From Sipunculus nudus (taxonomy: Eukaryota; Annelida; Sipuncula; Golfingiida; Sipunculidae), in contig CM049311.1 in assembly GCA_026874595.1 (NCBI GenBank), positions 64,335,953 to 64,399,952 of the forward strand: DNA of 64,000 nucleotides, read 5' to 3'. The notes below the pieces were generated by a model. It had not been told where the DNA came from. It ran no database searches and saw only the letters and a program-made list of their open reading frames with translations. The first letter of the stretch is position 1; the number at the start of each line of letters is the position of its first letter. The translations under genes and the position numbers were made by a program. Shown here piece after piece: positions 1,514 to 64,000 of the stretch.

Positions 1514-4500
1514 GTATGTGGTCAGTGATGAGTTGTCAGGTATGTGGTAATTGACAAGAGTAAGCAGGTATGTGGTAATTGACAAGAGTAAGCAGGTCAG
1601 TGACAAAAGTTAGCAGGAATGTGGTCAATAACAAAGAGGTGGCAAGGTATGTGGTTTGATGAGCCTGGAGCCAGCTTAGTTTTACAGTTTTGATTGTTTT
1701 GAAAAACTTGTTGACTTTGTTAGTAAGCCAATTTCTGCGCAGGCTTAATAATTTTTTGTTACTTCAGGTTTTGATATGGGTGCATCAGGTTCACTTGAAC
1801 TATGAAATGTCATACACCTATACCTGTTAACAGGTACAGCAGTTACCGTCCCCAGTATTATCATAGTCAGTTCCACCGAGGGGCGTCCATTATATTTTGT
1901 CAGATATTCCTGTACAAAGTTAATATAAATATGACAAGTGAAAATACAAATAGAGCTGATGTCTGTTTGTACCACAACCAGTGAAACACAATTGTGTCAG
2001 AGGTTCTACCCACTTTGTCAATAAAGCAAGTTTCACTGGCAAATATTAAAAAATGTCACTTTTTTGAATATATCAGGTGTTCCACCAGTTGTATAGAAAG
2101 AAATGATCACTACTTGATTAAATAATTAATTAAATATTTGATGGAAGCTCAGTCTATTCCTGTCATGACATGTTAACAGTTAACAAACAGAAGTGGTTAA
2201 GTTGAGGAAAACTCATTTAAAACTTTGATTGGTTGTTGGTTTTACTCAGTACGTGTAATAAAATACATCATCAGCTCGGAGATACCAAGCAGCCCTGTCA
2301 GTTCAAATAAAGGCATCTAGAAAGTTTTTTTCTATAATTTTTCATGCATTTTATATTTCCAGAGTGCTCTTTCAGTAATGCCATTGTCATACATATAAAA
2401 TCAAATGAGCATTTTAGAATTATCACCAAAAACAAATGGATACCCCTAAGTAGAACACACTATAATAAGTGTATGATTGAGTCTCGGCTATTTTCATAGC
2501 TAATGCTGTCCGTGCATTGTAAAGTGACTGGACGGAGTGGATGAATGCTCTAAAGTCCTTTCCAGAACCCTTGTCTAGTTTTTAGCTCAGCTGACTATAA
2601 GTCATCTGAGCTATAGTCGTGGTCCATTGTCCGTCGTCCGTCCGATGGGCCGTCCGTCAGTCCGTCTGTAGATGTGGCACGTTTTGAAACCGTAAGACCT
2701 AGGAATCCAAAATTCGGCATAATGTTAGATGTCCCCAAGATCTCCTACCAAGCCGAAAACTGGGTCTTTGCGACTTTGAGAAATTAAGGAAAAACCTCAA
2801 TTTTTAGCTCAGCTGACTATAAGTCATCTGAGCTATAGTTGTGGTCCATTGTCCGTCCGTCTGTCCGTCTGTCCGTCAGTCCATCCGTAGATGTGGCACG
2901 TTTGAAACCGTAAGACCTAGGAATCCAAAATTCAGCATAATGTTAGATGTCCCCAAGATCTCCTACCAAGCCGAAAACTGGGTCTTTGCGACTTCGTTCC
3001 TTTGAGAAATTAAGGAAAAACCTCAATTTTTTATTAAAAACCTATTTTCACACTTCAAAACTGCCTAATATCAAAACCACTGATCTGTTTTTCCTCATAT
3101 TTACCATAAATATTCCTCTATATAGTTCCTATGTAAATGCCAGAAATTATGTCTGTTTTATATAATTTAAAAAAGTTATGGGCCCAAACATAATGCATTT
3201 TGTAAAAAATCAGGAAAGATATTTAATCACTTAACACAAAACATGTTAAAGGTATGGACTTTTTTTCCAGTAATTTAACTTAAATTAATTAAAATTAAAT
3301 TGTATACCCAAAATTAGATCAAAATCTTTTAAATTTTTTAAAATATTAACAAAAATAAAAAATTGGTACCTTAAATTTTGCCCAACTTTGTCCATGGCAC
3401 GTTTTTTTCCTGTTAGTACTGTGGATTTAATTTTCACAGCATGTTTATGTTAGCATTTTGTCTGTTAACACCAATTTTTGAAACCAGTTGATCAAAAACT
3501 GTAGATTTTATTCAAGTTTTCAAGCACCCTGTAACATATTGTTTACACCAAGCTAGTGTTATGCAGTTTGCAAGAGCACAGCTCCCCAGCTTCAGCTCTC
3601 AGTTCCTAAATTTGGCATACAATTAGATGTCTCCAAAATCTCCTACCATGCCAAGAATTTGGTCACTAGGACTTAATACCTTCGAGATATTAATGAAAAA
3701 CTTCATTTTTCCATTAAAAACCCATTGTTACACTTCAAGACTGCCTAATATCAAAACCACTGGTCTGACTTTAATCATATGTAATATATATATTTTTCTA
3801 TACATTCTCTATGCACATGTCAGAAATGATGTCAGTATTGCGTAATTGTTTTAAGTTATGGGCCCAAACATAATGCACTTTGTAAAAAATCAAGAAATAT
3901 ATTTACTCCCTCAACAAGGGGATTGCTGAAGCTAGAGATTTTTTGTCAGGGATGTAACAATATTTAATCAAGATTCAATTGAATACCCAAAATTAGTTCT
4001 GAATTTTTCAAATTTTATAAGTTATTAGTATAAATATAAAATGAGTACGTTAAATTTTGCCCAACTTTGACCATGGCACATTTGTTTCCTGTGAGCAATG
4101 TTGATATAATTTTCATATCATGCACACATAAGTATTTCATCTTTGTAGTTTAGAAAGCTGAAAGAAATTGGCCAAAAATTGTAGCTTTTATTAATGTTTT
4201 TATGAGACCATGTCAGACCTTGGCTCCCTCAAGCGCCTCCTGAGTCACCTGTATGTTGACCTTGTTGAACTTTCAGCAAATTATGCATGCTTGATTCGAG
4301 GCTTTCACTGGGGCAGCCAGGCAGCTTATGGCCAGCCACAGTTGATCCAAGTGTCCAACCCAACTCATCTAGTAGTTTTAACAAAACAACATAACAATAA
4401 ACAATAAATTAATAATTTTTTTTTGTATTTTAATAACAAATTAAAGAAAAATAGAAAAGGAATTTGTTAGTTTATAATAACAGGAAATTAACTTGTAGTT

Positions 4501-7500
4501 ACTGATAATATAAGAATCTTGTATCGATGGATAGAATGTCACATATTCCAAATAACACCATGCAGTATTTTTCAGTCCAGTTTTAATGATAAAAAAGTAA
4601 ATCATATTATTCATTACTAATCATTAGGGATCATATGAAGGAAATTAATGATCAACAAAGATGCAGTTGATAATATTAATCTAGATTCTTACTGTGTCTA
4701 GTGTGTACACTGATGTGAAATTAGTCCAAAATGAATATGTTACATTTATTTTTTTTTTAATATAAACCAAAGCCATAAAACCAGGTACTTAAGATCATTA
4801 TTTAAATGTGTGAATTTTGTATATTCTGGATTCTCAACATCATTGTTTGATGAAAACTATATAAATACCAGACATGGTGTGAATACTTTGCAATTGTATT
4901 TAAATACGAATATGAATATGTACTCCATTATAAAATTTCTTGCATAAAGAATGGGAATTCAGGTGAAAATGAAAGTATATGAATACCAGTGCAAATACTT
5001 TCAAAATGTATTCATGAATGCATTCATGAATATATTCTTTAATATTATTTTAATAATCTTTTCAGTTATATTTCATTTTAAAAAATCATATGATTCTCTT
5101 ATTATTTTTAATAAAAATTATATTTGGGACATTATTTGTAATTTTTTTTAATAAATAGTTAAACTCTTATATTATATGTTCTGCTTATAAGTTATATGGC
5201 CAAGTCAAAATCTGTTTGACAGTAGTACTCCATTTGTTAATAAAATAAATGAAATCAATCCTCTTCCCTGTCTCCAAAGGTACTATCAAAATCATACATA
5301 AGCTAAACAACAACAACAAATAATACAGCTTATATTTATTTCTACACAAAACCAGCATGTGCCTCATTTCTAAATCATATTTTTTATCATACATAACAGC
5401 TGGGCGCCGTGACCCATAGGTCCCTTTTTTTATTAAAAACCTATTTTCACACTTCAGGGCTGCCTAATATCAAAACCACTCATCTGTTTTTCCTCATATT
5501 TACCATAAATATTCCTCTGTATAGTTCCTATGTAGATGCCAGAAATTAGGTCTGTATTATATAATTTTAAAAAGTTATGGGCCCAAACATAATGCATTTT
5601 GTAAGAAATCAGGAAAGATATTTGAACACTTAACACAAAACATGTTAAAGCTATGGACTTTTTTTCCAGGATTATAACTTTAATTAATCAAAATTAAATT
5701 GTATACCCAAAATTAGATCAAAATCTTTTAAAGTTTTAAAAATATATACAAAAATAAAAAATTGGTACCTTAAATTTTGCCCAATTTTGACCATGGCACG
5801 TTTTTTTCCTGTAAGTACTGTTGATCTAATTTTCACAGCATGTACACATAAGGATTTAATCTGTTAAAATCTGAAATTTGAAAATAAAAGCTGCAAAATT
5901 AGGCTAGTTATTGAATTTTTTTGGAGGCTCTTGTTGTATTCCCTTACATTGTCAAGCAGTCCACTGTGGTCACTGTGGGTCATTCAGTGCAGCTCTGTAT
6001 GCTCCCCAGGCTATTATGTAATCCCATCACTCCAGCAAGCCCTCTCTCTTGTTGAGCTTGATCAGGCTGCCAGCATAAAAACCACAGGGAGCCTTTCTCT
6101 CTCCCCCCCCCCCCCCCCCCCCACCCCATTCTGTTGACAGACCTGTACTCTAAACAAGATGAATCTTATAATTTCAGCGATGAACAGTAACAACAGAGAC
6201 CCCTCACTGAACCCACCGCTTCAATACACAGGACTAATATACAAGACAAAACTGATAATTTTAATGTTAAAAAATTCTTTTTGTTGAGACTTGGACAATT
6301 TTGATTTTTTTTAAGAAAAAAATGTTCAGGAATTTAATCCTAATATTCATATATGGTAAAATATTAGGACCTAATGAAAGTGCTAACTGACAAGATTTAA
6401 GAAGACATAAATACTTTGTAGCATTTCGTTCATATCTCTTAAAGTTGGTGGGGCCTAGTTATCTAGTTTTTTAAAATAAGAAATATTGGTCAAACTTTGT
6501 GGGATTAATTTTTAACTCATATGGCCATATATTTAACTTTTGAAAAATTAATTACCTTCACACATTATTTGTTTATGAAATGGAGTTTTTATATGACACT
6601 TACCATAAGCCCATTTTTCCCCTTGGTGCATCACTAAATGGTTTCAGGCCAAAGTTTTCATTTATTACACAGTCCATATGCTTTAGCTCATGTCCATTAT
6701 TCTATAATTTACAGAGTTTCATTTAAGCTTGGCCATTTTCTCTTAGCTTTTCAAATGGTAATATACATGGAAAAACCATAAGAAACAAAAATATTTTGCA
6801 GTTACTAATATTTTCCAAAATTCAGCTGAGCGACGTGACCCATAGGTCCCTTGTTTTTCATGACTATATTTTTGCAAATCAAAGAATGCCCAAACTTATT
6901 GTCCTTCCGGCAGAAAGAGGAAAAAGCTGAATTAACCTTTATAGAAATAATGGCTTACCTTATGTCATTTTCCTGTAAACAGATTAAACCATTTTATGAG
7001 TAACTTTTCTACTGTGTAGTGACATCTTCCCACTGATCTGTGATAGGGCATATCAGGGAATTATGATGACATCATTATAGACGTGATGTATACTAATGAA
7101 GCACCAACATCCATGGAACCAAAAATCAAGAGACATGTCCCCTGTTTACAGGGAGACTTGTATTTTCTGCTTGCACACGCTTCACTGTTACGTCACATTC
7201 CTTTTTATCCATATCAAAGGAAGATAAACAATGGCCACTTGTTAAGGAACGCCATGAACCATGGATATATATGAGACATGTCAACCAGGCCGTAAAAAAA
7301 AAAAATATTTATATCGTGAATAGGTAAGGTTTCAAAAATAATGCTTTTGCCTCTTTATGCCATTGGTGCAAATTTTGTTTGGCAAGTTTGGTCTTAGGAA
7401 GAGATAATTGTGAAAAAATCAGGTGGACAGGGAGTGTGGAACAGACTATAATAGGATTCATTTCTCTTCTGCGTCATAATAATGTTGGTGGGCCACAACA

Positions 7501-10500
7501 TTGATTGAAGGGAGGATAATTAGAGGAGATTTTGGAATCAGATGAAAATAGACCAGTGATTGGACTAATGGTACAGGGACTGGGAGGAAGTGTAAGAATG
7601 ATGGAACAGCCATGTTTTTCTGCTGAATAGCTTCCATTTGTGGAATTTTAGTCCGTTGTTGTTAAGATTCATGTTGCTTCTCTCTTGCTGCTATGTTTTT
7701 ACATGCACATCACAGTTAACAGCTCCTTCATTTTATTTTTTGTATCTTTATTAAGTTTGAACATGATTTAAAGAGACCCTGGCTTTAGCTAAATATCTGA
7801 ATCATCCCTTAATCATGTTACTGGTAAAATCCTTAAGAAAATCAGTCAAGTCAGTGTAACATTTTGATTGTACCAGCATCTGTGTCACACTTTGCATTAA
7901 TATTCCTTGGGTTAATGGCATTGGAATGCAGGTTTGACATCTCGTTAATGCGTTATTCATGTTTGTGTGACATGTAGGTAACATTGGAATCATGACTGCA
8001 TGGCATGAAGACTATGCTCTGATCATGTCTGTGTGGCCTGCAGTAATATTGTCTCCTCTGCCAAGAGGGAGACATTTTAGTGTTTGGTCTATCAGGGGCA
8101 GCAGCATCTGTGTCATTAACTTGTAAATGTGAGAACTTTTGAAACAGTTTTTAAATTTTAATTGTTTCTACCAATATCTAAAACAAATTAGAAAATCAGT
8201 GACTTAATGTTCATCTTCTAAGTCATATAAGTCAGAATAAAAAAATATTGTTTCAACCAAGTTTTCAGATGAGATTGAAAACTGATTACCTTGACTAGGA
8301 TCTTTAAAGTCAAATTAGCCAAACTATAACTCATAGTTCCTAGGATTTCCTGTGAATGTATTTTAACTTTTGAAGCACTGCATATTCTTACTGGTATATT
8401 TCATATACCAGTACCAGTTTTTTCAACCAAGTTCTCGAACAGGTTGGAAAACTGGTAGCCGTGAGCTTCATCTTCAAGGTCAAATCAGCCAAATCAGAAA
8501 TTTTAGCTCAGCTGACTGTAAGTCAACTGAGGTATAGGAATGACGCTTTGTCTGTCCTCCGTCCGGCCGTCTGGCCGTCCGTTAGCAGGGCACAAATTGT
8601 AACTGCTGGTCCTAAAAAATTATAAGTGAACATCCAAGGAGTCATATCTCTGCAGTGGTTTGACTAATTCACCTAAATTTCGGCATGCATATACATCCTG
8701 GATGCCTTTCTTGATTTTATGACAGGTTGCGCAATCTACATTCACGTTCATGCTGCAGACATCCAAGCTCATATCTTGGGAACCGTTTGACTGATTGGGC
8801 CTAAATTTTGCATGTGTATTGATCTCACACAGCTCTTTATCATACCCAAAACTGGTGGCACCACCTGCAGCCATTTTTGCACGGCCTCCATCTGTTTGTC
8901 TGCCATGGGCTAAAATCACTCATATACATGTAGTGGTTTGACATATCTGCCTAAAATTTTGCAGGTTTATACATCCTTGACAGCTCTCTTGATTTTATGA
9001 CAGGTGGCGCCACCTACATTCTTGTTTACGCTGCAGTCATCCAAGCTCATATCTCGGGAACCGTTTGACTGATTGGGCCAAAATTTTGCATATGTATAGA
9101 TCTCACAAAGCTCTTTATCATACACAAAACTGGTAGCGCAACCTGCAACCATTTTTGCACAGCGTCCATCTGTTTGTCTGCCACGGGCTAAAATCACTCA
9201 TATACATGTAGTGGTTTGACTTATCTGCCTTAAAATTTGCATATGTATACAACTTGGACAGCTTTCTGGATTTTGTGGTAGGTGCCTACATACTCATTTC
9301 GGCTGCAGACATCCATGCTAATATGCAACACTTCAATCTATTTCCCCTTGCCACTCAATCCATGCCTCACTTCACCCATTCCACTCTGATTTTAGGGGAT
9401 ACACATAGTCGCTTGTCAACTACCCATATTCTAGTTACATCTAGTGTCCTAAAACCTAGTGTGTTTATTCATCACAAGTGGATGCCATATAGTTATCACC
9501 CTGTCTGTCTGTCTGTCCATCTGTCCTTCCACACAAATTGTTTCCAGATAATAACTCCAGGTTGTTTTGACACATGAATTTCAAACTTGACTTACATATG
9601 GCCCACCACTAAAGCAAGAATCTATATGATTTTTGGGTCCAACGGTCAAAGGTCAAGGTCACAGGACTCATTTCTTTAAACAGATTATGGCTGCATTTTA
9701 AGCCAAGCTTTTCATCCCAAACTTTCCATTTAATACATTTAGCTGGCTTGCGAGTATGGGGAGAGCATAAATGAATTTGGGGTTACATGGTCAAAGGTCA
9801 AGGTCACAGGGGCCGTCTGTTCACAAATAGTTTCCAGATGATAACTACAGTTTAGTTTGACATATTGGTTTAAAACTTAATGTATGACTCACCACTTAAG
9901 GAAGAACTGTGTCGATTTTGGGGTCCAATGGTCAAAGGTCAAGGTCACAAGACTCATTTCTTTAAAAAGAATGCATATGCATTTGAAGCAAAACTTTTCA
10001 TCACAAACCTTTCATCTTCAAGATATTACTAACCTGCCAATAGAGGAAGATTCTGTTCAGTTTTTTGGTCATGAGGTCAAAGGTCAAGGTTACAGTACCA
10101 ACTTATTTAGAAAGATTGTGGATGTATTTAAGCCAAACTTTTCATCCCAAACCTTCCATCTTGCACATATAGCTGAGCTGCTAATAGGGGAAGAACTTGA
10201 TTGAATTGGGGGTCACAAGGTCAAAGGTCATGGTCACAGGGGCCCATCTGTCCACATATTTGTTTCTGAATGATAACTCCAGTTTGCATTGACATATTGG
10301 TTTCAATTTTGACTTATATATGACCCACCAATAATGTAAGAACCCTTTTGATTTTGGGGTCATTAGGCCAAAGGTAAAGGTCACAGGACTCACTTCTTTA
10401 AAAAGATTGTTGATGTATTTTAAGCCAAACTTTGTGTCCCAAACATTCTATCTTCCAGATGTTGCTCACCTGCCAAAAGTGGAAGTAATTTATGGATTTT

Positions 10501-13500
10501 TTTGGTCAAAAGGTCAAAGGTCAAGGTCATTGGGGCCATCTATCCACGTACTAGTTTCCAGGTGATAACACCAGTTTGGTTTAAAATATTGGTTTCAGAC
10601 TTGACTTGTATATGGTCCACCACTAAAGTAAGAACTGTTGATTCTAGGGTCATGAGATCAGAGGTCAAGGTCACAGGACCCACTAGTTAAGAAAGATTGT
10701 GGATGCATTTTAAGCCAAACTTTTAATCTCAAACCTTCCATCATTGACATGTGGGGCACCTGCCAATTAATATGGGAAGTTTACTTTTGATTTTGGTGTC
10801 ATTAGGTCAAAGGTTAAGGTCACAGGGCCCATCCATTCACAAATTAGTTTATTGATGATAACTCCAGTTTGGGTAGACAGGTTGGCTTCAAAGTGATCAC
10901 AGGACCAATTTTTTGGGAAACCTCATAAACATATCCTTATAGACAAATGCAGCTGAGCGTCAAGACCCATGGGTCCCTAGTTTTATGAATGCAATAACTT
11001 TTTAATCACTCAATATTTTTTTATGAAATGTAATACACAGTGTTTTTACAAAAATATGGGAGGAGTTTGAAAACCAGTCAGCTTAAATTTAATCTTCAAG
11101 GTCATGTCTTCAGAATTCTAGGATTTTTGTGAACACTTCCACTTTTAAAGTAGAGACACATATCTGTTTTTTACAGTTGCAAAAACAAACTCATTCTAGT
11201 TATCAATCAGATAAAGCAGAAAGAAATTGGAAATTTGTTATCTTTTTTGGTGCAAAGATGAAAAAAATACACAACATTTGGCAAAACTGGTTTTACAACA
11301 GACTCATCGACAGACAGATGTATGGAACACTTCAGACCTCAGTAAGCAGTGCCATTGACTAACACAAAGCTACTGAGGGGGTCTCCTAGCTACCCACAGT
11401 TCATAATGGGATGTATACCTCTTGATGAAAGCCAGTACTGAAAAAAAAGTGGAAGAACCTTTCTTCTCCAGTAAGAGGCACTGTATACATAGCATTATCA
11501 TGCCTGCATTAGATATTTACCGTAAAGCTAAGATACCATGTACAGAATGCAGATAAAATTGTTATTTGAATAAATGAATAAGGTGAGATTCCTTTTTTGC
11601 AGATCTGGCATGCTTAATGCATATCTGGCAAAATGAATTGCTAAATGAATTGATTTTTGCGGGTGTGCATGGTATCCAGGAGTGACACTTATGAATATGC
11701 ATGTATGAAATTCATATACCAGGGTAGTGTCATACCTGGTACACTTATAGATCAATATGATTGAATTATTAATTTATTTTTCAGGTACTGCTACAAGTGG
11801 CTATAACAGATGGAGATTTCTTCATGAATGTTTGGAAGATTTGGATAAATCTTTCCAAAAATTTGGAGGCCGTTTGTATGTGCTGCATGGCAAGCCCGTT
11901 GAAGTGTTTGACAAACTTTTTGATGTAAGACAGACACTAATATATTACCTTTCTTTAACTATCTTCAAACAGTTTAAAGTTATGCAAAGTTAAAGAACTC
12001 CAAAGATCGAAACAATTCTAGAAAATGATACTGGTAGGATTAAAACATGGTAGCTAGTGAAATGGTGTTTTACTTTAATCATCATCCATCATTTGTACAT
12101 TAACCCAAATTTTATGTATAAAAGCAGTCATCTAAAAAACTCTTATCAGATATCTGCATTAACTTAGATTTTATAGGGAAAAAGTCACAAACTCTTCTTC
12201 TCTGAAATTGTCTAGCCAAAATGTTCAATATTTCACAGAAATAATCCCTGCAACAATCTCTCTAAAGTTGTTTAAATGTTTCCAGTTCAGTGAATTTTGC
12301 CCAAGTTTCAGGAAGCTGAACTTGTTCATTTTGCCAAAAAAGGATACTTATTACAATCTCTGAAATGACTTTCAGTCATGCTGAGCTATAGCGATCACTC
12401 TTTGTCCGTCGTCCATCTGTCCGTCCGTCTGTCCGTCGTGCCGTCCGTCTGTCCGTTAACCTGGCACAAATCGTAACCGCTGGACTTAGAATCTTGTAAC
12501 TTTACATTCTGAGAGGTCAATGAAAAATCTCCTTGGAAACGAGAAATTAGGTCTCTGTTACCCATATCCTTCGAGCTTTTTGGCCCCAAAGTACCCCCCA
12601 GAATAGTAAAAAATTTCATACAAAAACTTTAATATCTCATTAACTACATCACTGATGGTTATGATTTTTGGCATACATATTTATCATGAGATGTTCCATC
12701 AGTTCCTGCAGACTGGTGGCGCCACCTGTATTTTTAGATTTTTTACGAATTTTTTTCTCTATTTTTGAGACCTTTAAAAATGTGAACAACTGTTAACACG
12801 GCACAAATCGTAAAGACTGGACCTAGAATCTTCATTCTTGACACAGTGAGTGACCTATAAAAAGTCTCTATGGAAACCAGAAATTAGGTCTCTGTTACCC
12901 AAATCCTTTGAGCTATGGGGCCCCAAAGTACCCCCCAGAATAGTGAAAAATTTCATACAAAAACTTCAATATCTCATTAACTACATCACTGATGGTCATG
13001 ATTTTTGGCATACATATTGATCATGGGATGTTTCATCAGTTTCTGCAGACTGGTGGCGCCACCTGTATTTTTCGATTCTTTACGAATTGTTTTCTCTGTT
13101 TTTGAGATCTTTAAAAATGTTGACATCTGTTAACAGGGCACAAATCGTTAAGACTGGACCTAGAATCTTCATTCTTTACACAGTGAGAGACCTATAAAAA
13201 GTCTCCATGGAAATCAGAAATTAGGTCTCTGTTACCCATATACTTTGAGCTATGGGGCCCAAAAGTACCCCCCCCCCCCCCCAGAATAGCATAAAAATTT
13301 CATACTAAAACTTCAATATCTCATTAACTACATCACTGATGGTATTGATTTTTGGCATACATATTGATCATGAGATGTTTCATCAGTTTCTGCAGACTGG
13401 TGGTGCCACCTGTATTTTTCAATTTTTTACGAATTGTTTTCTCTATTTTTGAGACCTTTAAAATGTGAACATATGTTAACAGGGCACAAATCTTTAAGAC

Positions 13501-16500
13501 TGGACCTAGAATCTTCATTCTTGACACATTGAGAGACCTATTATAAGTGTCCATGGAAACCTGAAATTAGGTCTCTGTTTCCCATATCCTTTGAGCTGTG
13601 GGGCTCCTAATTACCCCCCCCCCCCCCGAATAATGGAAAATTTCATACAAAAACTTCAGTATCTCATTAACTACAACACTGATGGTCATGATTTTTTACA
13701 TACATATTGATCAAGAGGTTTTCCATCAGTTCCTGCAGACTGGTGGTGCCACCTGTATTTTTCAATTTTTTACGAATTGTTTTCTCTATTTTGGAGACCT
13801 TTAAGGATGTAGTTATCTGTCAAAATGGTACAAATCGTAATGACTGGACCTAGAATCTCCATTCTTTACACACGGAAACCCATGAAAAGTCTCCATGGAA
13901 ACCTGAAATTAGGTCTCTGTTACCCATATCCTTTGAGCTATGGCACTCCATAGTAAAGCTTTAGAATAATGGAAAATTTGATACAAAACAAGTATCTAAA
14001 CAACTAATGCAGAGATCACCATAATTGTATGCATGAATATTGATCATGGAGTGTTTCATCAGTTTCTGCAGACTGGTGGCACCACCTGTATTTGTTCAGC
14101 TTTTTTATGAATTTTTTTCTCTATTTTTGAGTCCTTTAAAGATATGAACATCTGTAAACAGGGCCCAAATCATAACAACTTGACCTAGAATCTTCATCCT
14201 TGACAAACAGGGAGATCCATGAAAAGCCTCCATGGAAACCTGAAATTAGGTCTCTGTTACCCATATCCTTTAAGCTGTATGGCTTCAAAATACCCCCCAT
14301 AATAATGAAAAATTTGATACAAAAACTGCAGTATCTCAATAACTACAACACTGATGGTCATGATTTTTGGCATACATATTGATCATGAGGTGTTCCATCA
14401 GTTTCTGCAGACTGGGTGAGCCACCTCTATTTTTTTTTCAATTTTTAGCTCAGCTGACTATAAGTCATCTGAGCTATAGTCGTGGTCCATTGTCCGTCGT
14501 CCGTTCGTCTGTCCGTCTGTCCGTCCGTCCGTCCGTCCGTCCGTAGATGTGGCACGTTTTGAAACCGTAAGACCTAGGAATCCAAAATTCAGCATAATGT
14601 TAGATGTCCCCAAGATCTCCTACCAAGCCGAAAACTGGGTCTTTGCGACTTCGTGCCTTTGAGAAATTAAGGAAAAACCTCAATTTTTTATTAAAATCCT
14701 ATTTTCACACTTCAGGCCTGCCTTATATCAAAACCACTCATCTGTTTTTCCTCATATTTACCATAAATATTCCTCTATATAGTTCCTATGTACATGCCAG
14801 AAATTAAGTCTGTAAAGTATAAATTCTTTAAGTTGTGGGCCCAAACATATTGGACTTTGTAAAAAAATCAGGAAAAATAATAACTCACTTAACATGAAAA
14901 ATTTTGAAACTAGAGTCTATTTTTTCAAGTATATAACTATGTTTAATTAAGATTCAATTGTTTACCCAAAATTAGATCTGAATTTTGTAAATTTTTGAAG
15001 TTATTAGCATAAAAAAAAATCAGTACCTTAAATTTTGCCTAACTTTGACCATGGCACGTTTTTTTCCTGTAAGCACCATTGATTTAATTTTCACAGCATG
15101 TAAACATAAATATTTAGTTTGTCTAAATCTGAAATTTGGAAATAAAAGCTTGAAAATTAAGCTAGTTATTGATTTTTTACTGTAGTCACTTGCTTTGATT
15201 ACAGATGCAGGGTCCCACTCCAGGTCACTGGAAGTCAGCTATGCCAGGGTTTCTGATTTGTTACAGTCACTGGGGGAGATCCCCTGCTGTGACAGGTGTA
15301 CAGTTATTCTCATATCACCACCCCAATCACCCCCCCCCCCCTCCCCCGCAAACCCAACCCACCAAGTGTTATGCAGTAATTGTTATTGTTTTCACTGTAT
15401 CTCCTTAATTGTAATGCTGTTTCCACTCCGATATGCAAAAACTTTCCTTGAAAAAATAATTCAAGGTGTAATCCAGAAGATGCAATGTTGTGTAATGTAG
15501 CATTTTTAAAGAAATCAATTTTCTTTTAAATGATTTTAACAAATATAAAGGAACCCATCAGTATGCTTAAATTATTATAAAATATGAAGCACATTATGGA
15601 TAAATAAAGACACAATTAAAAATTGTGAAATCTTAACCAAGTATTATTTTTAGATATTTATTGTTTTGCAGATTTAAAAGATATATTTTTGTGGTGAAAA
15701 ATAAATAAACATTTGTATGCATGATGTGGTGTTATCTGACAAGATTGAGATTTATGATGATGCAATTGAGAATTATGAATCAACTTTTATATTCAGATAT
15801 ATATGTTAAATTGGAAATGTATAGAAATATAAACTTAAATTAGAAAATAATTGATGTGATAAAAAAATCAGGATTTAATACAAACATTTCTTCATTATTT
15901 TCCTGCCTCAGCAGAATTTGAGATCAGGCTTTGTTTGCCCTGTTTTATGTTGTTAATTAGCTATATTTAAACTGTATACATCTCATAAATAAAATACATA
16001 TAAATTCAATAATATATATTATACAAAAAAATAGATTAAATTGAACAAATGTGTAAACTACTGAAATGTCAACAGGTAATCGAAAAACCAACTAATGATC
16101 ATGGTAATAGTACAGATCATTTGTTCACAAACTGCTCACATGCTTTAGTTTCAACATTAGGAAACACATGGTCAGGTCACAAAATATTTTTTGCAACAAT
16201 TTCTTGCTCATCAATACAAACCAATCATATAAACCAACCATGGCCTTTATTACCTCTTCCTCTTACACTTTATCTCCATTAGATATTTTTTAGATTTTCA
16301 CCTTCAAGGTTAACGTCAGCTGAGCACAGTGACCCATAGGTCCCTTGTTTATGAATTTTTTTCTCTATTTTTGAGACATTTAAAGAATAGGTTATCTGTC
16401 AACAGGGTACAAATCGTAACAACTGGACCTAGAATCTTCATTCTTATCATGCAAGGAGGCCCATGAAAAGTTTCTGTGGAAACCTGAAATTAGGTCTCTG

Positions 16501-17226
16501 TTTCCCATATCCTTCAAGCTATAGGACTCTGAAGTATCCCTCAGAATAATGGACAATTTGATACAAATGCTGAAGTATCTGAACAACTAATCCAGAGACC
16601 ACCATGCTTCTTTGCATGGATATTGACCATTAAGTGTTTTTATTAGTTTCTGCAGACTGGTGGAGCCACCTGTATTTTTTTTTAAATTTTTTTCTCTATT
16701 TTTTAGATATATTAATACAGACACAATCTCAGCGTGTTGGTTAATCTGTTTGATGCTTCAGTTGAATGGGTATATACTACCATTCAGATGATAAAATTTC
16801 CTTTTTGCGAATCTCTTCCCATTCAGCTGAGCGTCATGACCCATGGGTCACTTGTTAGTTTGTTTTATGCATCTGTGCATATACCTCAAGTGGTTTGAAG
16901 TATCTGCCTGAAATTATGCATGTCCATACACCTGTTGGTATTCTCATACTCAAGACTAGAGGTGCCACTTACAATTATTTTTATGTTGTGTGCATCAATG
17001 CCAGTATTTCAGGAGTGAAGTTTGAGTAATTAGAGCTTATGCTTTTTCGCATTGTACACATACATACTTGAAAAAAAAAAAATGATCCAGCATGGAAGCA
17101 TTTTACCTGATGTATATCCCATTGCACAGGTTCGCATTAGGCCTGTAGGCCTTGTATTCTATTGTATTTATTATCTTCCAAATTATTGACCCAAGAGCAA
17201 ATAGAATTATGTGTGCTTTACCAAAC

Positions 17227-17312
<86 letters not shown>

Positions 17313-17775: not shown

Positions 17776-17808
<33 letters not shown>

Positions 17809-20633: not shown

Positions 20634-20684
<51 letters not shown>

Positions 20685-21269: not shown

Positions 21270-21325
<56 letters not shown>

Positions 21326-48731: not shown

Positions 48732-48733
48732 TA

Positions 48734-50902: not shown

Positions 50903-52178
50903 TTGGCCGAGTTACAGGAGGTTGAACTTAGTCATCTGTCCAAAAAAGCACACTAAAATTAAAATCTCAGAAACGGCTAGAGCTATCATCAGCAAATTTT
51001 ATACCAATGTTTGTCACATATGTCATATCTGAAATTGAGGTATTGGTGGCGCCACCTACATTGATGTATTAAGCGAAAATGTAATTTTAGATGCTTCTAG
51101 CTTGTACACTGTTTTATGATGAAACTGTTAAGCTAATTGGTTTAAACTTTACGAGAATTATTCTATGTTAGGGTTCTGTCAGTTTTATAAGAATAGAATG
51201 GGTAAATGCAGCTTTAAAAAAGCAGTGTAACCAATTGAAAAAGGCTTTCTGTGTTTGAAAACAGATTTGACAATATGCTGAGTTTCAGCAGCCAATTCAA
51301 GAGGTCATTCAGTACAACCAGGTGGGTTCCAGACCACCATGGCAACTGACCTGGCTCTGTCTGGTGTCTAGACAATGTGTCTAGACGTCTAGACACAGCT
51401 TCTAGACGTCTTGACACAATGTCTAGATGCAGAATTCCCAGATTATTGGAACTATATTTTCAACTGTTTTAACAAACTTGGTTGTATTTTAAGGGAATCG
51501 GGTTTATCATCAGGTCACATGTGAACTGCTGCGCCCTCATATTTTGGTTGACCTCGTGACCTTTCCTCGCTGCCCAGCGTCAATTTGTGCGTCTGTTTCC
51601 ACACATAAACCCACATATCTAGGAAACATTTGACCGATTGGGCCAAAATTTTGCATGTGTATAGATCTCACATAGCTCTACATCATAGGCAAAACTGGTG
51701 GCCCCACCTGCAACCACTTATGCACACCGTCCATCTGTTCATCTGCCTTGGGATAAAATTACTCATATCTCAGCATTTGTTTGACTTATCCACCTGAAAT
51801 TTTGCAGGTTTATACATCCTGGAAAATTTTCTCGATTTTTATGACAGGTGGCGCCACCTACATTCACGTTTACGCTGCAGACATCCATGCTAATATGCAA
51901 CATACCTCACTCTATTCCCCTTGCCACTTAATCCATGCCTCACTTTACCCGTCTCACTCTGATTTCTGCGGATACACATATAGTCGCTTGTCGACTACCC
52001 ATATTTTAGTTTTAAATGTCCTAGTCTGAAACTTGCAGGTCCGTAACGCCCATTTTGCTGAAATTATAATGACTAAGGTAGATATGCAGGACGTAAGAGG
52101 ATAAATATTAAATTTAAAAAATAAACCTCCATTCATACTCCCAAATTTTGCACAGGTTCGCCTTAGGCCCGTAGGCCT
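50903..52178 (+). mobile_element. composite Helitron-like element (E with nested D), plus orientation, 5'-truncated
   Basis: E cores (GGCCGAGTTACAGGAGGTTG, TTGGTGGCGCCACCTACATT) run to a TCTAGACGTCTAGA palindrome cluster (51366-51425). Nested D cores follow, with the D 3' end hairpin TAGTCGCTTGTCGACTA and TTAG (52006-52009). Then come the E 3' region, GCACAGGTTCGC (52150-52161) and the hairpin AGGCCCGTAGGCCT (52165-52178). No head is present. Confidence 0.7.
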
Positions 52179-52340
52179 TATTATTTCTTCCATTCAATAT
52201 TCATGATTTTTCAGAGGCATGACAGCATGTTTTTCTGTTTTCATTTTTTAACATGACGATGTGTTTGTATGCGCTTAAGTAGCCCGATTTAATCGGACTC
52301 ATATTATTAAGCCCTGCCATATTTTGAGTCCGACAGCCAT

Positions 52341-52562
52341 TAGCCTCGGTCACAACCCACTGCGGTCACCGCACATCGCAGAGCACCGTTCGGTTTTAGA
52401 AACCGCGGGAATACTTATGCGGCCGACGTTTTTGGAACCGCATGAATACTTTAGCCTCGGTCACAGCCCGCTACGGTCACCGCACACTGTAGGTCACCGT
52501 TCGGTTTTAGAAACCGCGGGAATACTTATGCGGCCAAGTGAGCTAACCTTGCGGACGCCGCA
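52341..52562. repeat. 111-bp direct repeat, two copies
   Basis: Both copies share TAGCCTCGGTCACA, GTCACCG, TTCGGTTTTAGAAACCGCGG and ATACTTATGCGGCC. Offset is exactly 111 bases. Confidence 0.9.

Positions 52563-53719: not shown

Positions 53720-53720
<1 letters not shown>

Positions 53721-53758
<38 letters not shown>
53721..53758. repeat. (TAA)n microsatellite
   Basis: About 12 TAA units. Confidence 0.97.

Positions 53759-55222: not shown

Positions 55223-55307
<85 letters not shown>
55223..55307. repeat. (TC)n then (AT)n microsatellite
   Basis: TC units at 55223-55252, then AT units at 55254-55307. A further (AT)n run of about 57 bases lies at 55400-55456 and one at 56799-56840. Confidence 0.97.
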
Positions 55308-55311
<4 letters not shown>

Positions 55312-55397
55312 TACAAATAGACGAATCAAATTTTTTTCAGACATTTTTACTACTACGTAGTTTCGTGCAACGTGCTGCACTCATCACGATATGATTG

Positions 55398-55459
<62 letters not shown>

Positions 55460-56790: not shown

Positions 56791-56851
<61 letters not shown>

Positions 56852-57048
56852 TAGCTGATACACCCGTTATCCCGGGCTTTATAACGGTTTTGGGGAGATA
56901 TATTAACTGAGATGTGGAATGTTGGCTCATTTTTTATTTTAAAAATTAAAAGAAAATATAGGTTTTCAGTGGGATACTATCTCAATAAGATGTGTACAAA
57001 TATTTGTCACATTTATTTTGTGGCTTTGTGATCGTGCAAATAAAAACA

Positions 57049-59380
57049 AGGCCTACAGGCCTAACGCGAACCTGTGCAAAGTTTGGGAATATGAATGGAG
57101 GTTTATTTTTTAAATTTAATATTGATCCTCTTAAGTCCTGCATATCCACCTTAGTCATTATGATTTCAGCAAAATGGACGTTTCGGACCTCCAAGTTTCA
57201 GACAAGGTCATTTTAAAACTAGAATATGGGTATTCGACTATGTGTATCCGCAGAAATCAGTGAGGGACGGGTGAAGTGAGTAAGGGGAATAGAGTGAGGT
57301 GTGTTGCATAATAGCATGGATGTCTGCAGCGTAAACGTGAATGTAGGTGGTGCCACCTGTCATAAAATCGAGAAAATTGTCTAGTAATGTAAAAACCTGC
57401 AAAATTTAAGGTGAATATATCACACCACTGCTGAGATATGAGTGATTTTACCCCAAGGCAGATGAACAGATGGATGCTGTGCATAAGTGGTTGCAGTTGG
57501 CGCCACCAGTTTTGCTTATGATGAAGAGCTATGTGAGATCTATGCACATGCACAACTTTGGCCCAATCGGTCAAAAGGTTCCCGAGATATGAGCTTGGAT
57601 GTCTGCAGAGTAAACCTGAATGTAGGTGGCGCCACCTGGCATAAAACCAAGAGAGCTGTCCAGGGTGTATAAACCTACAAAATTTCAGGTGGATAAGTCA
57701 AACCACTGCTGAGATATGAGTGATTTTATCCCAAGAAAGATGAACAGATGGACGATGTGCAGAAATGGTTGCAGATGGCACCACCAGTTTTGCCTATGAT
57801 GAAGAGCTATGTGAGATCTATACACATGCACAATTTTGGCCCAATCGGTCAAACGGTTCCTGAGATATGAGCTTGGATGTCTGCAGAGTAAACCTGAATG
57901 TAGGTGGCGCCACCTGTCATAAAATCGAGTAAGCTGTCCAGAATATATAAACCTGCATAATTTCAGGTGGATAGGTCAATCCACTGCTGAGATATGAGTG
58001 ATATTATCCCAAGGCAGATGAACAGATGGTCGCTGTGCATAAGTTATTGCAGGTGGCGCCACCAGTTTTGCCTATGATGAAGAGCTATGCGAGATCTATA
58101 CACAAGCAAAATTTTGGACCAATCAGTTAAACTGTTTCTGAGATATGAGCTTGGATGTCTGCAGAGTAAACATAAATGTAGGTGGCGCCACCTGTCACAA
58201 AATCGAGAAAGCTTTCCAGGATGTATAAACCTGCAAAATTTCAGGTGAAAAAGTCAAACCACTGCTGAGAAATGAGTGATATTATCCCAAGGCAGACGAA
58301 CAGATGGACGCTGTCCTTAAGTGGTTGCAGGTGGCGACACCATTTTAGTGTATGTTATAAAGCTATCAAAGGGCTACATTTGTGCAAAATTTTTAGCCTG
58401 ATCGGTCAAACGGTTCACGAGATATGTGGGTTTATGTATGGACACAGACTCACAAATGGACGCTGGGCAGATGATAAACCCGATTCGCTTAAAATGCAAA
58501 CCAAGTTTTTTCTGAAAGATATAGTTCCAATAATCTGGGAATTCTGCATCTATACATTGTGTCTAGACGTCTAGACGCTGTGTCTAGAAATCTAGACACA
58601 TTGTCTAGACACCCCCCCCCCCCCGAGCCAGGTGAGTTGCCATGGTGATGTCTGGACCCCACCTGTTTGTACTGAATGACCTCTTGACTTGGCTGCTGAA
58701 ACTCCGCACGCTGTCAAATCTGTTTTGGCTACAATTCTTTTTTAAAGCTGTATTTACCCAATCTATTCTTATCAAACTGGCAGAACCCTATCATAGAATA
58801 ATTCTTGTAAAGTTTAAACCAATCAGCTTATCAGTTTCATCATAAATCAGGGTATAAGCTAGAAGAGTTTAAAATTACATTTTCGCTAGTAAAAAACACA
58901 TCAATGTAGGTGGCGCCACCAATACCTCAATTTCTGATATGACATATGTGACAAACATTGGTATAAAATTTGGTGATTATAGCTCCAGTCGTTTCTGAGA
59001 TTTTAATTTTAGTGTGCTTTTTTGGACAGACGACTAAGTTCAACCTCCTGTAACTCGGCCAAAAATCTCCAAACTGGAACCATTCGAACAAACTTGAGAG
59101 AGATTGTTCCAGGGATCATTTCTGTGAAATATTGGACAATTTGGCTGGACAGTTTCGGAGAAGAAGATTTTTAAAGTTTTTTTAGCTTTTTCCCTATAAA
59201 ATCTAGGAAAATGCAGTTAGAAAAAATAAACAAAATCCGATAGAGTTTTTCAGATGACTGATTATTTGCAAAAAATTTGGTGATGCTAGCTTCTGCCATT
59301 TTTGAGATAGCTATGGTTAACGTACAGACGACGCACGACGTACGACGCCGCACCATCGCATAAGCTCACAGGACCTGAGG
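57049..59380 (-). mobile_element. composite Helitron-like element (E with nested D array), minus orientation, near full length
   Basis: Read on the minus strand from 59380: head GTCCTGTGAGCTTATGCGATGG, E cores (to about 58860), the TCTAGA palindrome cluster (58555-58612) and a nested D element whose 3' CTAG is at 57219-57222. The E 3' region, GCACAGGTTCGC (57066-57077) and the hairpin AGGCCTGTAGGCCT (57049-57062) follow. The D part carries a four-unit 277-bp tandem array. It shares its nested layout with 50903-52178. Confidence 0.7.
57345..58343 (-). repeat. 277-bp tandem array of family-D cores, four units
   Basis: GTAGGTGG(C/T)GCCACCTG recurs at about 57345, 57622, 57899 and 58177 (spacing 277-278). 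A second palindrome half, GGTGGCGCCACCAG or a variant, lies 146-150 bp later in each unit. Units are very similar, so the amplification is recent. Confidence 0.9.
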
Positions 59381-59390
59381 ACCTTTTTTT

Positions 59391-60256
59391 TTTAGTTTTC
59401 ATTTGTCCTCCTGGGTTGGATCCCCCCTTTTCCAAAATCCTGGATCCGCCCCTGCCACCCCTGTTCCTGAAATTTGGACCTTGAATTAGGTTTTAATTGT
59501 CATTAATCCTGCTGGGTTGAATCCTTCATTTAATAAGACGAGAAACATGTGTTTTCTCTTTTACTGACCACGTACGAGGGTGAGAGCCTGGGTCCAATTA
59601 AAGACCAAACATGCTCAAATCCCTCCCTGAAAGCAAGAGTTATTCATATGAAAAAAAGTCCTGAATCGTGTGGTTGAGTAGCCACCAAGGGTGACTATAA
59701 AATGTTAGATATATCTGAGAGTACATTTTATAGTCACCACCCCATGTATGCACTTGGGTGGGATTCTAACCTCTGTATGATCTTGGTCTATAAAAGGGAG
59801 AAAATCGCTCAGTAACTCGAGTATCTTATTTTAAAAGACAAAATTCTGTATTGATATTGCATAAATACCCTGCTTAATTAAGTCTATAACTCTTACAAAA
59901 CTGGACCAGTACACATGACAGTGTCGCCGCTACATATACATTCTAACTGCTTCTGTCATGGCGGTTATGAGCAGGACGACCCGTGTCTTCCTAGACCAAA
60001 ATACACAATAACTAAAGTAAAATGCACTTACAGTTACCAATATGTTGCAGTTGTATTGAAAAAAGGATAACTTTGTCATAGTGAAGAAGTTTTAATGTCA
60101 CCCCATCCGTGAAACTGAAAATAAAAACAGTCTTTTCTGGAAAATACGATCGTTGCTTTTTATAAATGAAATTCTTTAAAGCCTTGGGTCTCATTATTGT
60201 ATCAATGGTCAAGAATACTCATAAACAGCATTTTATCAAAACCCTGACAGTATTTT
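59391..60256. other. intergenic sequence, no gene recognised
   Basis: Mixed sequence with a paired ACATTTTATAGTCACCA/GTGACTATAAAATGT inverted repeat at about 59690-59735. Nothing else recognised. Confidence 0.4.
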
Positions 60257-61766
60257 TATGCCCCCGCCACAAAGTGGCCGGGGCATATAGTTTTACCCAT
60301 GTCCGTCCTTCCGTCATTCCGAAATCAAACAGTTGTACGGACTTTTTTTTCGCAATGCCTGCAGATATTGGCCTGATTTTTGGTGTGTGGGCAGATAATG
60401 ACCAGTTACAGATCGAGTTCGCGTTTCGTCCCGGTTGACCTACTTTTGACCGTTTTACGGCTCCTAAACTTAGAAAATTTCATGAAAAATAGAAATTTTC
60501 ATGACAAATACACATGTACGGCCTTTTTTTCGCAATGCCTGCAGATATTGGCCTGATTTTTGGTGTGTGGGCAGATAATGACCAGTTACAGATCGAGTTC
60601 GCGTTTCGTCCCGGTTGACCTACTTTTGACCGTTTTACGGCTCCTAAACTTAGAAAAATTCATGAAAAATAGAAATTTTCATGACAAATACACATGTACA
60701 GCCGTTTTCAGCCCTCAGCTCATAGGCTGATGGGCTATTGTCTTCACCCAAGCTGTCCGTCTGTCCATCTGTCTGTCCGGTGTCTGTCCGTCCGTCCGTT
60801 CCGCGTCTGTTAACTTTTACCTTGTGAGCGGGATATCTCTAAAAGGATTCACCATTGGAATTTTATTTCATCAGTGAAGATGTATATCGATAAAATCTCG
60901 GTCAAGTTCGAAGATGGGTGACCTTGACCCGTTTTTCTACATTTTAGAGCTGATTATAGAAAAACACTCAGAAGCTTATATCTCAGGAACCATTGTGTGG
61001 ATTTTCACAAAACTTACTATGATCATTGGGACTGATGGTCTGTATGTGCTGCACAATTTTGGTGGCGCCACCTGCAATTTCTGATTTTTTAATGAAATTT
61101 TATCGGATTTTTTCAATTTTGGCCTTTTGTGCAGGATATCTCCAAAGGTATTCAACACAGGAACTTCATTTCTTCAGTGCTATTGCATTATATTTACAAA
61201 ATCTTGGTGAAGTTCAAAGATGGGTGATCTTGACCTACTTTTCAAGGTCACAGAGCTTAGTATAGAAAAAAACTTAGGAGCTTATTTCTCAGGAAGCATT
61301 TGGTGGATTGTTATGAAACATGGTATATACCTCTCCAATTTAAATTTATAAATGATTATCAACTTTTGCTAATATACCTAGTTTCGCAATGCAATGCTTA
61401 CAGATACTGGCCTAATGTTTGGTCTGTGGGCGCATAATGACCACTTACAGATCGAGTTCGCGTTTCGTCCCAGTTAACCTATTTTTCACCATATGACAGA
61501 TCCTGAACATAGAAAATTTCATGAAAGACAGAAATTTTCATGAAAAATGCACATACATGAACTTTTTTTCACAATGCCTGCAGATACTGGCCTGATTTTT
61601 GGTGTGTTGCTTGATAATGACCCTTTACCGATCGAGTTTGCATTTGGCCCTTGTTGACCTACTTTTGACCATACAACACTTCCTGAACTTAAAAAATTTT
61701 ACAAAATTTAACAAATGTTTCTAATTTGCCCCAGGCGGGGGCATTCGTGTCGTTCCGACACATCTA
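60257..61766 (+). mobile_element. family-F Helitron-like element, complete
   Basis: The head is a near-perfect 14-bp hairpin (TATGCCCCCGCCAC, loop AAA, GTGGCCGGGGCATA; 60257-60287), then GTCCGTCCTTCCGTC. Four ~180-bp cores start near 60345, 60525, 61382 and 61564; the first two are almost identical. The 3' end has GGCGGGGGCAT (inverse of the head), the hairpin GTGTCG-TTC-CGACAC, and CTAG at 61763-61766 before TTT. It is interrupted by a second element (60709-61381). No protein is encoded. Confidence 0.75.
60709..61381 (+). mobile_element. element G nested in family F
   Basis: It begins CAGCCCTCAGCTCATAGG, whose AGCCCTCAGC can pair with GCTGATGGGCT, then GTCCGTCTGTCC tract. Two ~300-bp cores follow with GCTTATATCTCAGGAACCAT or variants; only the first carries GGTGGCGCCACCTGC (61059). 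It ends in CTAG (61378-61381) directly before TTTCGCAATGC, where the F core resumes. No clear subterminal inverted copy of the head, so it may be 3'-truncated. Confidence 0.6.
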
Positions 61767-61968
61767 GTTTCATAAGGGTTTTATTAGTTCTATTGATCAC
61801 TTCTATTTTCATAAACTGCAATGCCAAATATTTAGAAACAGTAAATATGCTGTTGGCGAGAATTCAGGCCTGCTACACATAACATTGTTTCCTGTACCTT
61901 CATTTACTGCTTTCGGAAATTAAGTAATCAATATGTTTTCACATCAGAAGCTAAAAATACGGATGAAA

Positions 61969-63106
61969 CTAGAATACGGGTAGTCGACAAGCGACTACGT
62001 GTATCCGCCAAAATCAGAGTGGAACAGGTGAAGTGAGGCATAGATTGAGTGGCAAGGGGAAATAGAGTGAAGTGTTGCATATTAGGATGGATGTCTGCAG
62101 CAGAAATGTGCATGTAGGTTGTGCCACCCACCACAAAATCCAGAAAGCTGTCCAAGTTGTATACATATGCAAAATTTAAGGCAGACAAGTCAAACCACTA
62201 CATGTATATGAGTGATTTTAGCCCATGACAGACAAACAGACGGACGCTGTGCAAAAATGGTTGCAGGTGGCACCACCAGTTTTGCGTATGATAAAACTTT
62301 GGCCCAATCGGTTCCTGAGATATGAGCTTGGATGTCTGCAGCGTAAACTAGAATGTAGGTGGCGCCACCTGTCATAAAATCAAGAGAGCTGTCCAGGATG
62401 TTTAAACCTGCAAAATTTTAGGCAGATATGTCAAACCACTACCGAGATATGATTGATTTTATCCCACGGCAGACAAACAGACGGATGCTGTGCAAAAATG
62501 ACTGCAGGTGGGGCCACCAGTTTTGCCCTTGATAAAGATCTATGTGAGGTCTATACACATGCTAAATTTTGGCCCAATTGGTCAAATGGTTCCCGAGATA
62601 TGAGCTTGGTTGTCTGCAGCGTAAACGTGAATGTAAGTGGCGCCACCTGTCATAAAATCAAGAAAGCTTTCCAGGATGTATACGCATGCTGAATTTCAGG
62701 TGAATTAGTCAAACCACTGCAGAGATATGAGTGATTTTAACCCAAGGCAGATGAACAGATGGACACTGAAATATGGTTGCAGGTGGCGCCACCATTTTTT
62801 GTGTATGTTATAAAGCTATCCGAGGGCTACATTTGTACAAAATGTTTTTCCTGGTCGGTCACACGGTTCCCCTGGATATATGGGTTTATGTGTGGAAACA
62901 GACGCACAAATTGACGCTGGTCAGAGAGGAAAGGTCAGAGGTCAACGCCAATTGGTTAGGCACCAGTTCACATGTGACCCGATAATTGGTGTAAGTTTTG
63001 GAAAAATCCGTCCAGTAGTCTCAGAGGAGTTCTCTGGAAACAAACGCGGTGGCGGCGAAACCCGGTCAAAAACATAGCATACACAAAACTTTGTTTTTGC
63101 GGATAC
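61969..63106 (-). mobile_element. family-D Helitron-like element, complete, minus orientation
   Basis: Read on the minus strand: head GTATCCGCAAAAACAAAG from 63106, head-proximal sequence (TGACCTCTGACC), then D cores with GGTGGCGCCACC at 62779, 62637 (variant) and 62355. The inverse GCGGATAC (62008-62001), the hairpin GTAGTCG-CTTGT-CGACTAC (61998-61980) and CTAG (61972-61969) before TTTC close it. Subterminal repeats are 8 of 8. Confidence 0.75.
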
Positions 63107-63302
63107 AATTACACTAGCTTTTTCCTGTTTTGATACGCGGAAACTTACACAGATTTGACTATGATTACACTTTTTTCAATTAATGTTTATAAACATTACC
63201 ACCCGGCGGACTTCACAATTGTCTGAAGAACACAATTAAATCATAAAAATTCTTTCTACCAAAGAGCAAGGTTAGGGTTGATTTTTGGGTCTTGCAACCC
63301 GA

Positions 63303-63598
63303 CTACAGATAATCATGCTGAAAAATAGTAAGCAGCTGATTTTGCACACAAAAAAACATTGGTGTCTCCCCGACAAACTGCTGTCTACAGCATTAGGGAG
63401 AAAATTTAAAAGTTGATATACACAATAGGAATACTCATTTTAATAACGAACTACAGATAATCATGCTAAATAAATAGTAAGCAGTTGATTTTGCACACAA
63501 AAATACATTGGTGTCTCCCCGACAAACTGCTATCTACAGCATTAGGGAGAAAATTTAAAAGTGGATATACAAAATAAGAATCCTCATTTTAATAATGT
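63303..63598. repeat. 148-bp tandem duplication
   Basis: CTACAGATAATCATGCT starts at 63303 and 63451. The two units differ at only a handful of positions over 148 bp, so the duplication is recent. Unit content is not recognised. Confidence 0.95.
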
Positions 63599-63673
63599 TT
63601 CTTTCAATCGTGGACCATTTAAACAGCAAGAACCAGATAAGAATAATTCAAAACAAAAGTATCCATGTTCAGA

Positions 63674-64000
63674 AACAAGGGACCCATGGGTCACGGCGCT
63701 CAGCTGATCATGATAAGACTATAAATGTATCACCATTGTTATACTATATTGAGTAGAAAAAGCTTATGAATATCATGGTCATGTTGGGCTTTTATAAAGA
63801 AATATATAATGTAATATGTGAGTAAATGATATATGAAATAATCTGACTGATGGATTAATATGGAGTAAAATATAGTGGTTTATTTTTTATTTATTTAGGA
63901 GGGGTCGAAAAAACAATTTATTTGAGCAAATATGAATGCAATGACAGTATACTAAGCAGTGGTATAATGATAATAAGGCTATTTGTTGAAGGATCTATAG
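63674..64000 (-). mobile_element. family-A Helitron-like element, minus orientation, runs off the window
   Basis: AACAAGGGACCCATGGGTCA then CGGCGCTCAGCTG (63674-63706) is the inverse of the family-A tail. The element body should lie to the right; only about 290 bases of it are in the window. Confidence 0.65.

Follow-up and report, generated by a model that had tools for sequence, protein, structure and literature searches.

Helentron-like repeat families of Sipunculus nudus: tails in common with RepHel elements and a module in common among tandem cores

There are a number of interspersed repeat families, designated A to F, in a stretch of 64,000 nucleotides of the Sipunculus nudus genome (assembly GCA_026874595.1, contig CM049311.1, positions 64,335,953 to 64,399,952), which is referred to here as the window. 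These repeats are very probably HINEs, the non-autonomous Helentrons, built on a plan that is already known, and the elements that mobilize them would belong to several Rep-helicase (RepHel) lineages and not to one. RepHel-endonuclease Helentrons gave rise to families A and F, since these share their 3' tails with such elements and one A copy retains a remnant of the endonuclease region. In addition, by comparison of their letters, one module of about 90 nt that ends in the dyad GGTGGCGCCACC is either the common ancestor of the D, C, E, and F cores or the part around which they have been kept alike. The shared module is new here and is very common throughout the genome. The repeats of the window were examined through self-comparison, a tandem-repeat search, and a fuzzy search for head and tail motifs. 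As a control, the motif search was run on one Markov-generated sequence, where seven of the eight motifs had no match and the D head had one weak match. The genome to which the window belongs (1,426,538,692 bases in 153 contigs) was also searched.

The initial annotation had proposed a shared Helentron/HINE-like plan. This is upheld by the structure of the ends, the insertion between T's, two empty sites, and the RepHel-endonuclease elements with A-type and F tails. Within the window, a head is followed by a tandem core, an inverse copy of the head, a hairpin, CTAG or CTTG, and then T's. The fuzzy motif search located five heads and eight tails of the A type, two heads (with further weak or mirror matches) and four tails of D, two heads with one additional diverged head and three tails of E, and one head and one tail of F. 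Subterminal inverted repeats are present at both ends in four pairs, CTCAGCTG/CAGCTGAG, GTATCCGC/GCGGATAC, GCGAACCTGTG/CACAGGTTCGC, and ATGCCCCCGCC/GGCGGGGGCAT, and all four tail types have a short palindrome near the 3' end. The heads start with AGCTC, GTATC, AGCGAAC, or ATGCCC, each after T's except for the diverged E head. Some tails end in CTAG and others in CTTG. The tandem cores that had been described are real, with lengths of 337 bp for C, 278 and 241 bp for D, 144/292 bp for B, and 180 bp for F in the tandem-repeat search. The plan had also included a GTCC/GTCTG tract, and no clear GTCC tract was seen behind the D head. The division of A, B, and C into separate families holds for their cores and not for their ends, as all three have the same type of head and of tail.

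Insertion between T's without duplication had been named as a known trait of Helentrons and HINEs, and the window agrees with it. At least four T's stand before 9 of 11 heads (eight measured directly and one D). The runs before the eight A-type, E, and F heads are 5, 5, 4, 5, 5, 5, 5, and 5 T's long, while the D heads are preceded by 6 and 2, the latter at the head at 63106. TT follows 15 of 16 tails, and the E tail at 17125 is followed by one T. Target duplications at most copies had been named as evidence that would refute the plan, and none beyond the T's was found in the eight complete copies (six of A, B, C, or F and two of D). The window also has a paralogous empty site for each of two nested insertions, A in A and A in C. 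The first, CTCAATTTTTTATTAAAA, is present in two of the three stretches that were compared and differs in the third. The second is a run of six T's, seen in four of five C units. When filled, these sites hold nine T's (A in A) and eight T's (A in C) in all. The number of T's varies in Helentrons and HINEs, and the T's are counted as part of the element in the passages available from PMC4067079.

Possible partners were found in the same genome. A search with PF14214 (Rep), in which the best 150 of 195 candidates were scored, listed at least 143 matches, with some genes represented by more than one piece. Of the listed matches, seven lie in open frames of more than 2,200 residues. The same search of 14 control genomes gave no match. 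A total of 32 RepHel loci were read on the 3' side, 10 within 20 kb around the locus and 22 more within 2.5-3 kb. The A-type tail forms the 3' end of 13 of these loci (one is a duplicated stretch) and the F tail that of two, and related RepHel copies with different flanks diverge 1-9 bases beyond the tail. There are three lineages with the A-type tail. The alpha lineage contains H15, its duplicate L063, and L064. H15 and L064 are 97.3% alike until one base beyond the tail and are different afterward; L063, which duplicates the stretch of H15 along with its flanks, is not independent. The beta lineage (H17, L067, L068, L079, and L082) is 97.9-98.5% alike until 2-4 bases past the tail. The gamma lineage (L069, L074, L076, L077, and L078) diverges 1-9 bases past the tail, with identities of 94.7% for L069/L074, 95.7% for L077/L078, and about 80% for L076 to L074. 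The fourth lineage (L066 and L081) is 99% alike, carries the F tail with one mismatch, and diverges three bases beyond that tail. An F head upstream of the tail was not detected in the stretches read. One further A-type tail, at L072, belongs to an adjoining A copy that resembles the outer A element of the window. Rep, helicase, and endonuclease are found together in one element at the RepHel loci, as in Helentrons, with the alpha endonuclease being below the cut-off. Alpha has PF14214 (Helitron_like_N, Rep) at 97.8 bits and PF05970 (PIF1 helicase) at 78.5 bits, and the PF14529 endonuclease match of gamma L078 has 36.6 bits, which is above the curated cut-off. Because four lineages carry these tails, the claim that one autonomous Rep-helicase element mobilizes all of the families is not supported.

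The A element at 14447-16347 carries more than a tail in common with alpha. It is 76% identical over 193 columns to the endonuclease region of H15 (window positions 16038-16228, forward strand). This remnant lies about 90 bases before the A tail, in the same order and strand as in alpha, and 39 of 72 residues are identical between its frame and the alpha frame. The alpha frame just upstream of the one that matches the remnant has weak PF14529 and PF03372 matches. When a 499-bp query from the 3' end of alpha was used across the genome, there were 1,848 first-look candidates, of which the best 40 were scored and three are the alpha loci. A second piece ends at query positions 435-438 in 32 of the other 37 scored matches, is partial in one, and is absent from four; the A-type tail ends at position 433 of the query. 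Most copies matched by this query are probably non-autonomous, since the Rep search gave only 195 candidates. The tails can also be sorted by their letters. In an alignment of 20 A-type tails, alpha has CCCTNG, and beta and gamma have CACTNG. The A and B copies of the window have CCCTNG (with one CCATTG and one CCCTTT), and the C element has CACTTG. The gamma tail hairpin is GGCCCATGGGCC in place of GACCCATGGGTC. In the A-type hairpin, 3 of 14 distinct rows have G-C in place of one A-T pair, with all cells paired. The cell count was reached by 4 of 500 shuffles and the pair count by 270 of 500. This change in gamma is a weak sign in the expected direction. The 33-base A head has 17,092 exact matches in the genome (8,448 + 8,644), compared to none in the control.

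The families had been described as unrelated in appearance. This still applies to the cores of A and B, which have no convincing match to the module, and does not apply to those of D, C, E, and F. The dyad GGTGGCGCCACC is present in the window 15 times exactly and 38 times with at most two mismatches, with 0.0004 exact occurrences expected under a first-order model. One is found in F (61061-61072, no strand assigned), and the remaining dyads are in the D, C, and E cores. When read from head to tail, ATCTC precedes the dyad in the cores of C, both D halves (d1 and d2), E, and F. In the 11 exact matches of the window, the two starts are 79-81 nt apart. For the 90 nt upstream, with the dyad excluded, the alignment scores of the ten pairs add up to 482, compared to 227 (standard deviation 22) after shuffling. 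None of 1000 shuffles was as high, and none of 2000 sets of random window pieces reached this score. The 40 nt downstream of the dyad give 173, compared to 98 (standard deviation 16), with 0 of 1000 shuffles as high. The pairs d1-d2, d2-F, and C-d2 are strong. The pairs C-F, d1-F, and C-E are weak, as 110, 65, and 44 of 1000 shuffles reach their scores. These families were selected for bearing the dyad, and F is represented by one unit and E by three. Genome-wide, the pattern ATCTC-N70..82-GGTGGCGCCACCT has 71,677 matches, and the reversed pattern has none. The module is 90-97 nt long among 100 listed matches, where 88-100 was permitted. A type that begins with ATCTCAAGAAATC is found among 42 listed genome strings and is absent from the 11 window matches. 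Weak partial matches to a model of the module in A and extra F cores (E values of 0.065-6.4) were not counted; the reversed window gave two matches, with E values of 1.1 and 4.3.

The dyad could have a function. Its conservation within C, d1, and d2 is 0.92-0.94, compared to 0.81-0.86 outside of it, and this is not used as proof of selection because other 12-column windows reach 0.94-0.96. The 23 imperfect dyads have 31 substitutions. Sixteen of these are at the central CpG, and 13 of the 16 are C>T or G>A, which fits decay after insertion. Tentatively, GGTGGCGCCACC may be a functional site bound by a host or transposon protein, which would have preserved the module in several Helentron families and spread with it to about 72,000 places; this is possible but rather doubtful. 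If true, the elements would be carriers of a genome-wide array of one candidate binding site. Together with the next T, the dyad reads AGGTGGCGC on one strand, which is presumably close to the core of a CTCF site. No support for this was found in the portions of the literature on AGGTGGCGC with CTCF that were available. A text search with the dyad letters, its 14-mer, the A hairpin, and the GTCY string matched one unrelated paper and no related one, with figures and supplements outside its scope. The dyad module is not described in the available passages on oyster HINEs, Helentrons, and BIV160 (PMC7492417, PMC4067079, PMC5139131). In viral contigs, neither the A tail pattern nor the 23-mer of the D-core dyad had a match. 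The pattern ATCTC-N60..85-dyad matched 33 stretches of viral contigs, which were taken, on inspection by eye of their letters and their base composition, as chance matches or phage coding sequence. The pattern AAATTTTGCA-N25..50-dyad had one match in genome contigs, in a Microbulbifer record, and this was taken as chance.

Several observations weigh against the repeats being HINEs that are moved by these RepHel lineages. No A-type, D, E, or F tail is present as an end, in the stretch read, at 17 of the 32 loci. The similarity of H18 and L084 to beta and gamma reaches into the endonuclease, after which they diverge and have no such tail; this lowers the confidence slightly. The search for RepHel elements with matching ends that the initial annotation had suggested succeeded for the A-type and F 3' tails. 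It gave no D or E tail as an end at any of the 32 loci read, and the 20 kb around alpha H15 and around beta H17 showed no A-type head. The 5' end was thus located for none of the autonomous partners. The alpha homology extends past the 5' stretch read. The endonuclease-like frame of alpha matches PF14529 at 23.6 bits, below the cut-off of 27.4, and the endonuclease match of the F lineage is also below the Pfam curated cut-off. Neither the remnant in the window nor the corresponding alpha frame has a Pfam match. Finally, the diverged E head at 59378 is preceded by no T, and the filled nested sites have eight or nine T's where most empty ones have six, so that two or three extra T's must be carried by the element or explained otherwise.

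Other explanations can be compared with these data. The hairpin, the CTNG-like end, and the T context are common to all tails, and a single autonomous RepHel could use these features to mobilize every family. This appears improbable, as the A-type and F tails each end RepHel lineages of their own, L066 has no DNA match to the alpha and beta 3' windows at the cut-off used, and the tail variants CCCTNG and CACTNG and the gamma hairpin track the lineages. Canonical Helitrons have a 5' TC and a 3' CTRR and insert between A and T. The repeats of the window were rejected as such elements, because of their four types of head start and their T-T target; the CTAG tails fit CTRR and the CTTG tails do not. 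A DDE transposase that moves miniature inverted-repeat transposable elements (MITEs) would account for the look of the inverted subterminal repeats and hairpins, and oyster pearl was initially called a MITE (passages of PMC7492417). It is extremely unlikely here, given that there is no fixed-length target duplication, with nothing beyond the T's in the eight complete copies, and that the same tails end RepHel elements; no search aimed at DDE proteins was made.

The A copies are dense, with eight A-type tails per 64 kb and the many exact heads counted above, and the tails beside RepHel genes could thus be those of neighboring HINEs. This applies to L072, and no tail is present at H18 or L084. 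As a general account, chance neighbors are highly improbable. The tail is kept in place, with divergence right after it, across different flanks (five in beta, five in gamma, two in alpha, and two in F). At the thresholds used, neither an A head nor an F head was detected in those stretches ahead of the tail, and the endonuclease region precedes the tail in alpha and in the window A copy alike. Chance or convergent low-complexity similarity has also been considered for the dyad module. The weak pairs and the choice of families by their dyad would favor it. The summed pair score, the genome matches with none in reverse, and the narrow range of lengths leave it very unlikely.

If the repeats are HINEs of several RepHel lineages, the RepHel protein of the matching lineage would recognize the head and the tail (the inverse repeat plus the hairpin). 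It would then nick the element, copy it by rolling circle, and join it into runs of T's. The tandem core would travel as passenger DNA, subject to exchange and multiplication between elements. To judge from their anatomy, D and E may be moved by the same mechanism.

The window contains the following elements. On the forward strand, an outer A element (2584-6853, head at 2584 and tail at 6823-6853) is interrupted by an inner A element (2806-5427), for which two other A stretches show the empty site. It is followed by a mosaic element (8505-10980) that begins with an A-type head and a C-type start and continues with a headless D that has cores and a D tail (8642-9434), B cores with GGTCAAAGGTCAAGGTCA, and an A-type tail. 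A C element (12366-16854) has a truncated A-like head, 337-bp cores, and the CACTTG-type tail. It is interrupted within its core array by the A element at 14447-16347, with the empty site in neighboring C units. An E tail (17125-17154), an A element with head and tail (25098-26006), and a stretch of C cores and then B cores with an A-type tail, for which no head was found (27996-29441), are also on this strand. The end of a D tail with cores on the reverse strand (31397-31967) is cut by the E head at 31968. This E head and its cores (31968-33393, forward) run as far as a further E head at 33393, and no E tail was found. Complete D elements, with no duplication beyond the T's, are present on the reverse strand at 40879-41694 and 61969-63106, and a complete F element is present on the forward strand at 60258-61767. 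An E stretch (50903-52180, forward) includes a headless D, with the D tail near 51968-52009 and the E tail at 52151-52180; no E head was found. The same arrangement is found in an E element with a diverged head (57047-59378, reverse). It was probably copied as a unit, since self-comparison shows, in both E copies, a headless D that has a tail of its own. An A-type tail (63676-63706, reverse) belongs to an element that leaves the window rightward.

The B cores at 9640-10830 and 28800-29290 have repeated GGTCAAAGGTCAAGGTCA, which presumably resembles nuclear-receptor half sites (AGGTCA, TCAAGGTCA). A palindromic 21-mer of the GTCTAGACACAGTGTCTAGAC type forms two arrays in the middle of E (51366-51427 and 58547-58611). 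Tandem arrays at 1-447 (152 bp) and 63302-63595 (149 bp) are outside of the described families. Photolyase/cryptochrome exons of the host are found at 11751-11960, 35327-35524, and 36472-36651, with repeats around and between them. They match PF00875 (39.4 bits) and PF03441 (80.1 bits) above the cut-off, and one further exon is below it at 21.9 bits. The CTCAGCTG at 35382 and the CAGCTGAG at 36544 were rejected as element ends because they are exact short matches within these exons. Outside of the window, separate D copies lie upstream of RepHel loci H6, H17, and H18, with one in the 5' region of beta H17 (L059/L060 joined, 3314-4178). The H1-H9 RepHel group was considered as a carrier of D or E tails, and no such tail was found in its 20-kb stretches. 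Read by eye, the H1 group seems to end in a hairpin of its own (GCTTGCGGAAATC...GATTTCCGGCAAGC, at about 19035-19070 of L043/L044 joined), with long tandem arrays ahead of it.

Since the tail variants sort by lineage, the question of which RepHel moves which element becomes testable. As the shared module shows, tandem cores can be related even when they do not look it, and this matters for the classification of such repeats; the module also offers one concrete candidate binding site. The plan of HINEs is already in print for oysters and flies, in the available passages of PMC7492417 and PMC4067079. As described in those passages of PMC7492417, Cg_HINE of Crassostrea gigas is like the window repeats in several respects. 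Its head has an additional inverted repeat besides the subterminal inverted repeats at the 5' and 3' ends, it has a microsatellite of the GTCY type, tandem repeats, and a 3' palindrome, and it inserts at TT without duplication. It also has related flanks around unrelated repeats. Pearl, CvA, DTC84, and MgE of bivalves, compared by description (passages of PMC7492417 and PMC5139131), are likewise modular, with short tandem arrays and a microsatellite or palindrome. In the BIV160/Cg170 satellites, divergent monomers share two motifs (passages of PMC5139131), as the window cores share ATCTC and the dyad, so a motif shared across cores has precedent; the comparison does not extend to the motif letters. 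HINE/DINE-1 and Helentrons (passages of PMC4067079) have subterminal inverted repeats (palindromic in HINEs), a 3' hairpin, a T-rich target with a varying number of T's, and RepHel-endonuclease partners. Their partners are 84-99.9% identical to the HINEs, whereas the likeness here is limited to the 3' end, with the remnant at 76%. In C. gigas, according to the same portions of PMC7492417, the HINEs could not be related to any autonomous Helentron. In Sipunculus nudus, by contrast, one genome links both the A-type tail and the F tail to lineages of RepHel-endonuclease elements.

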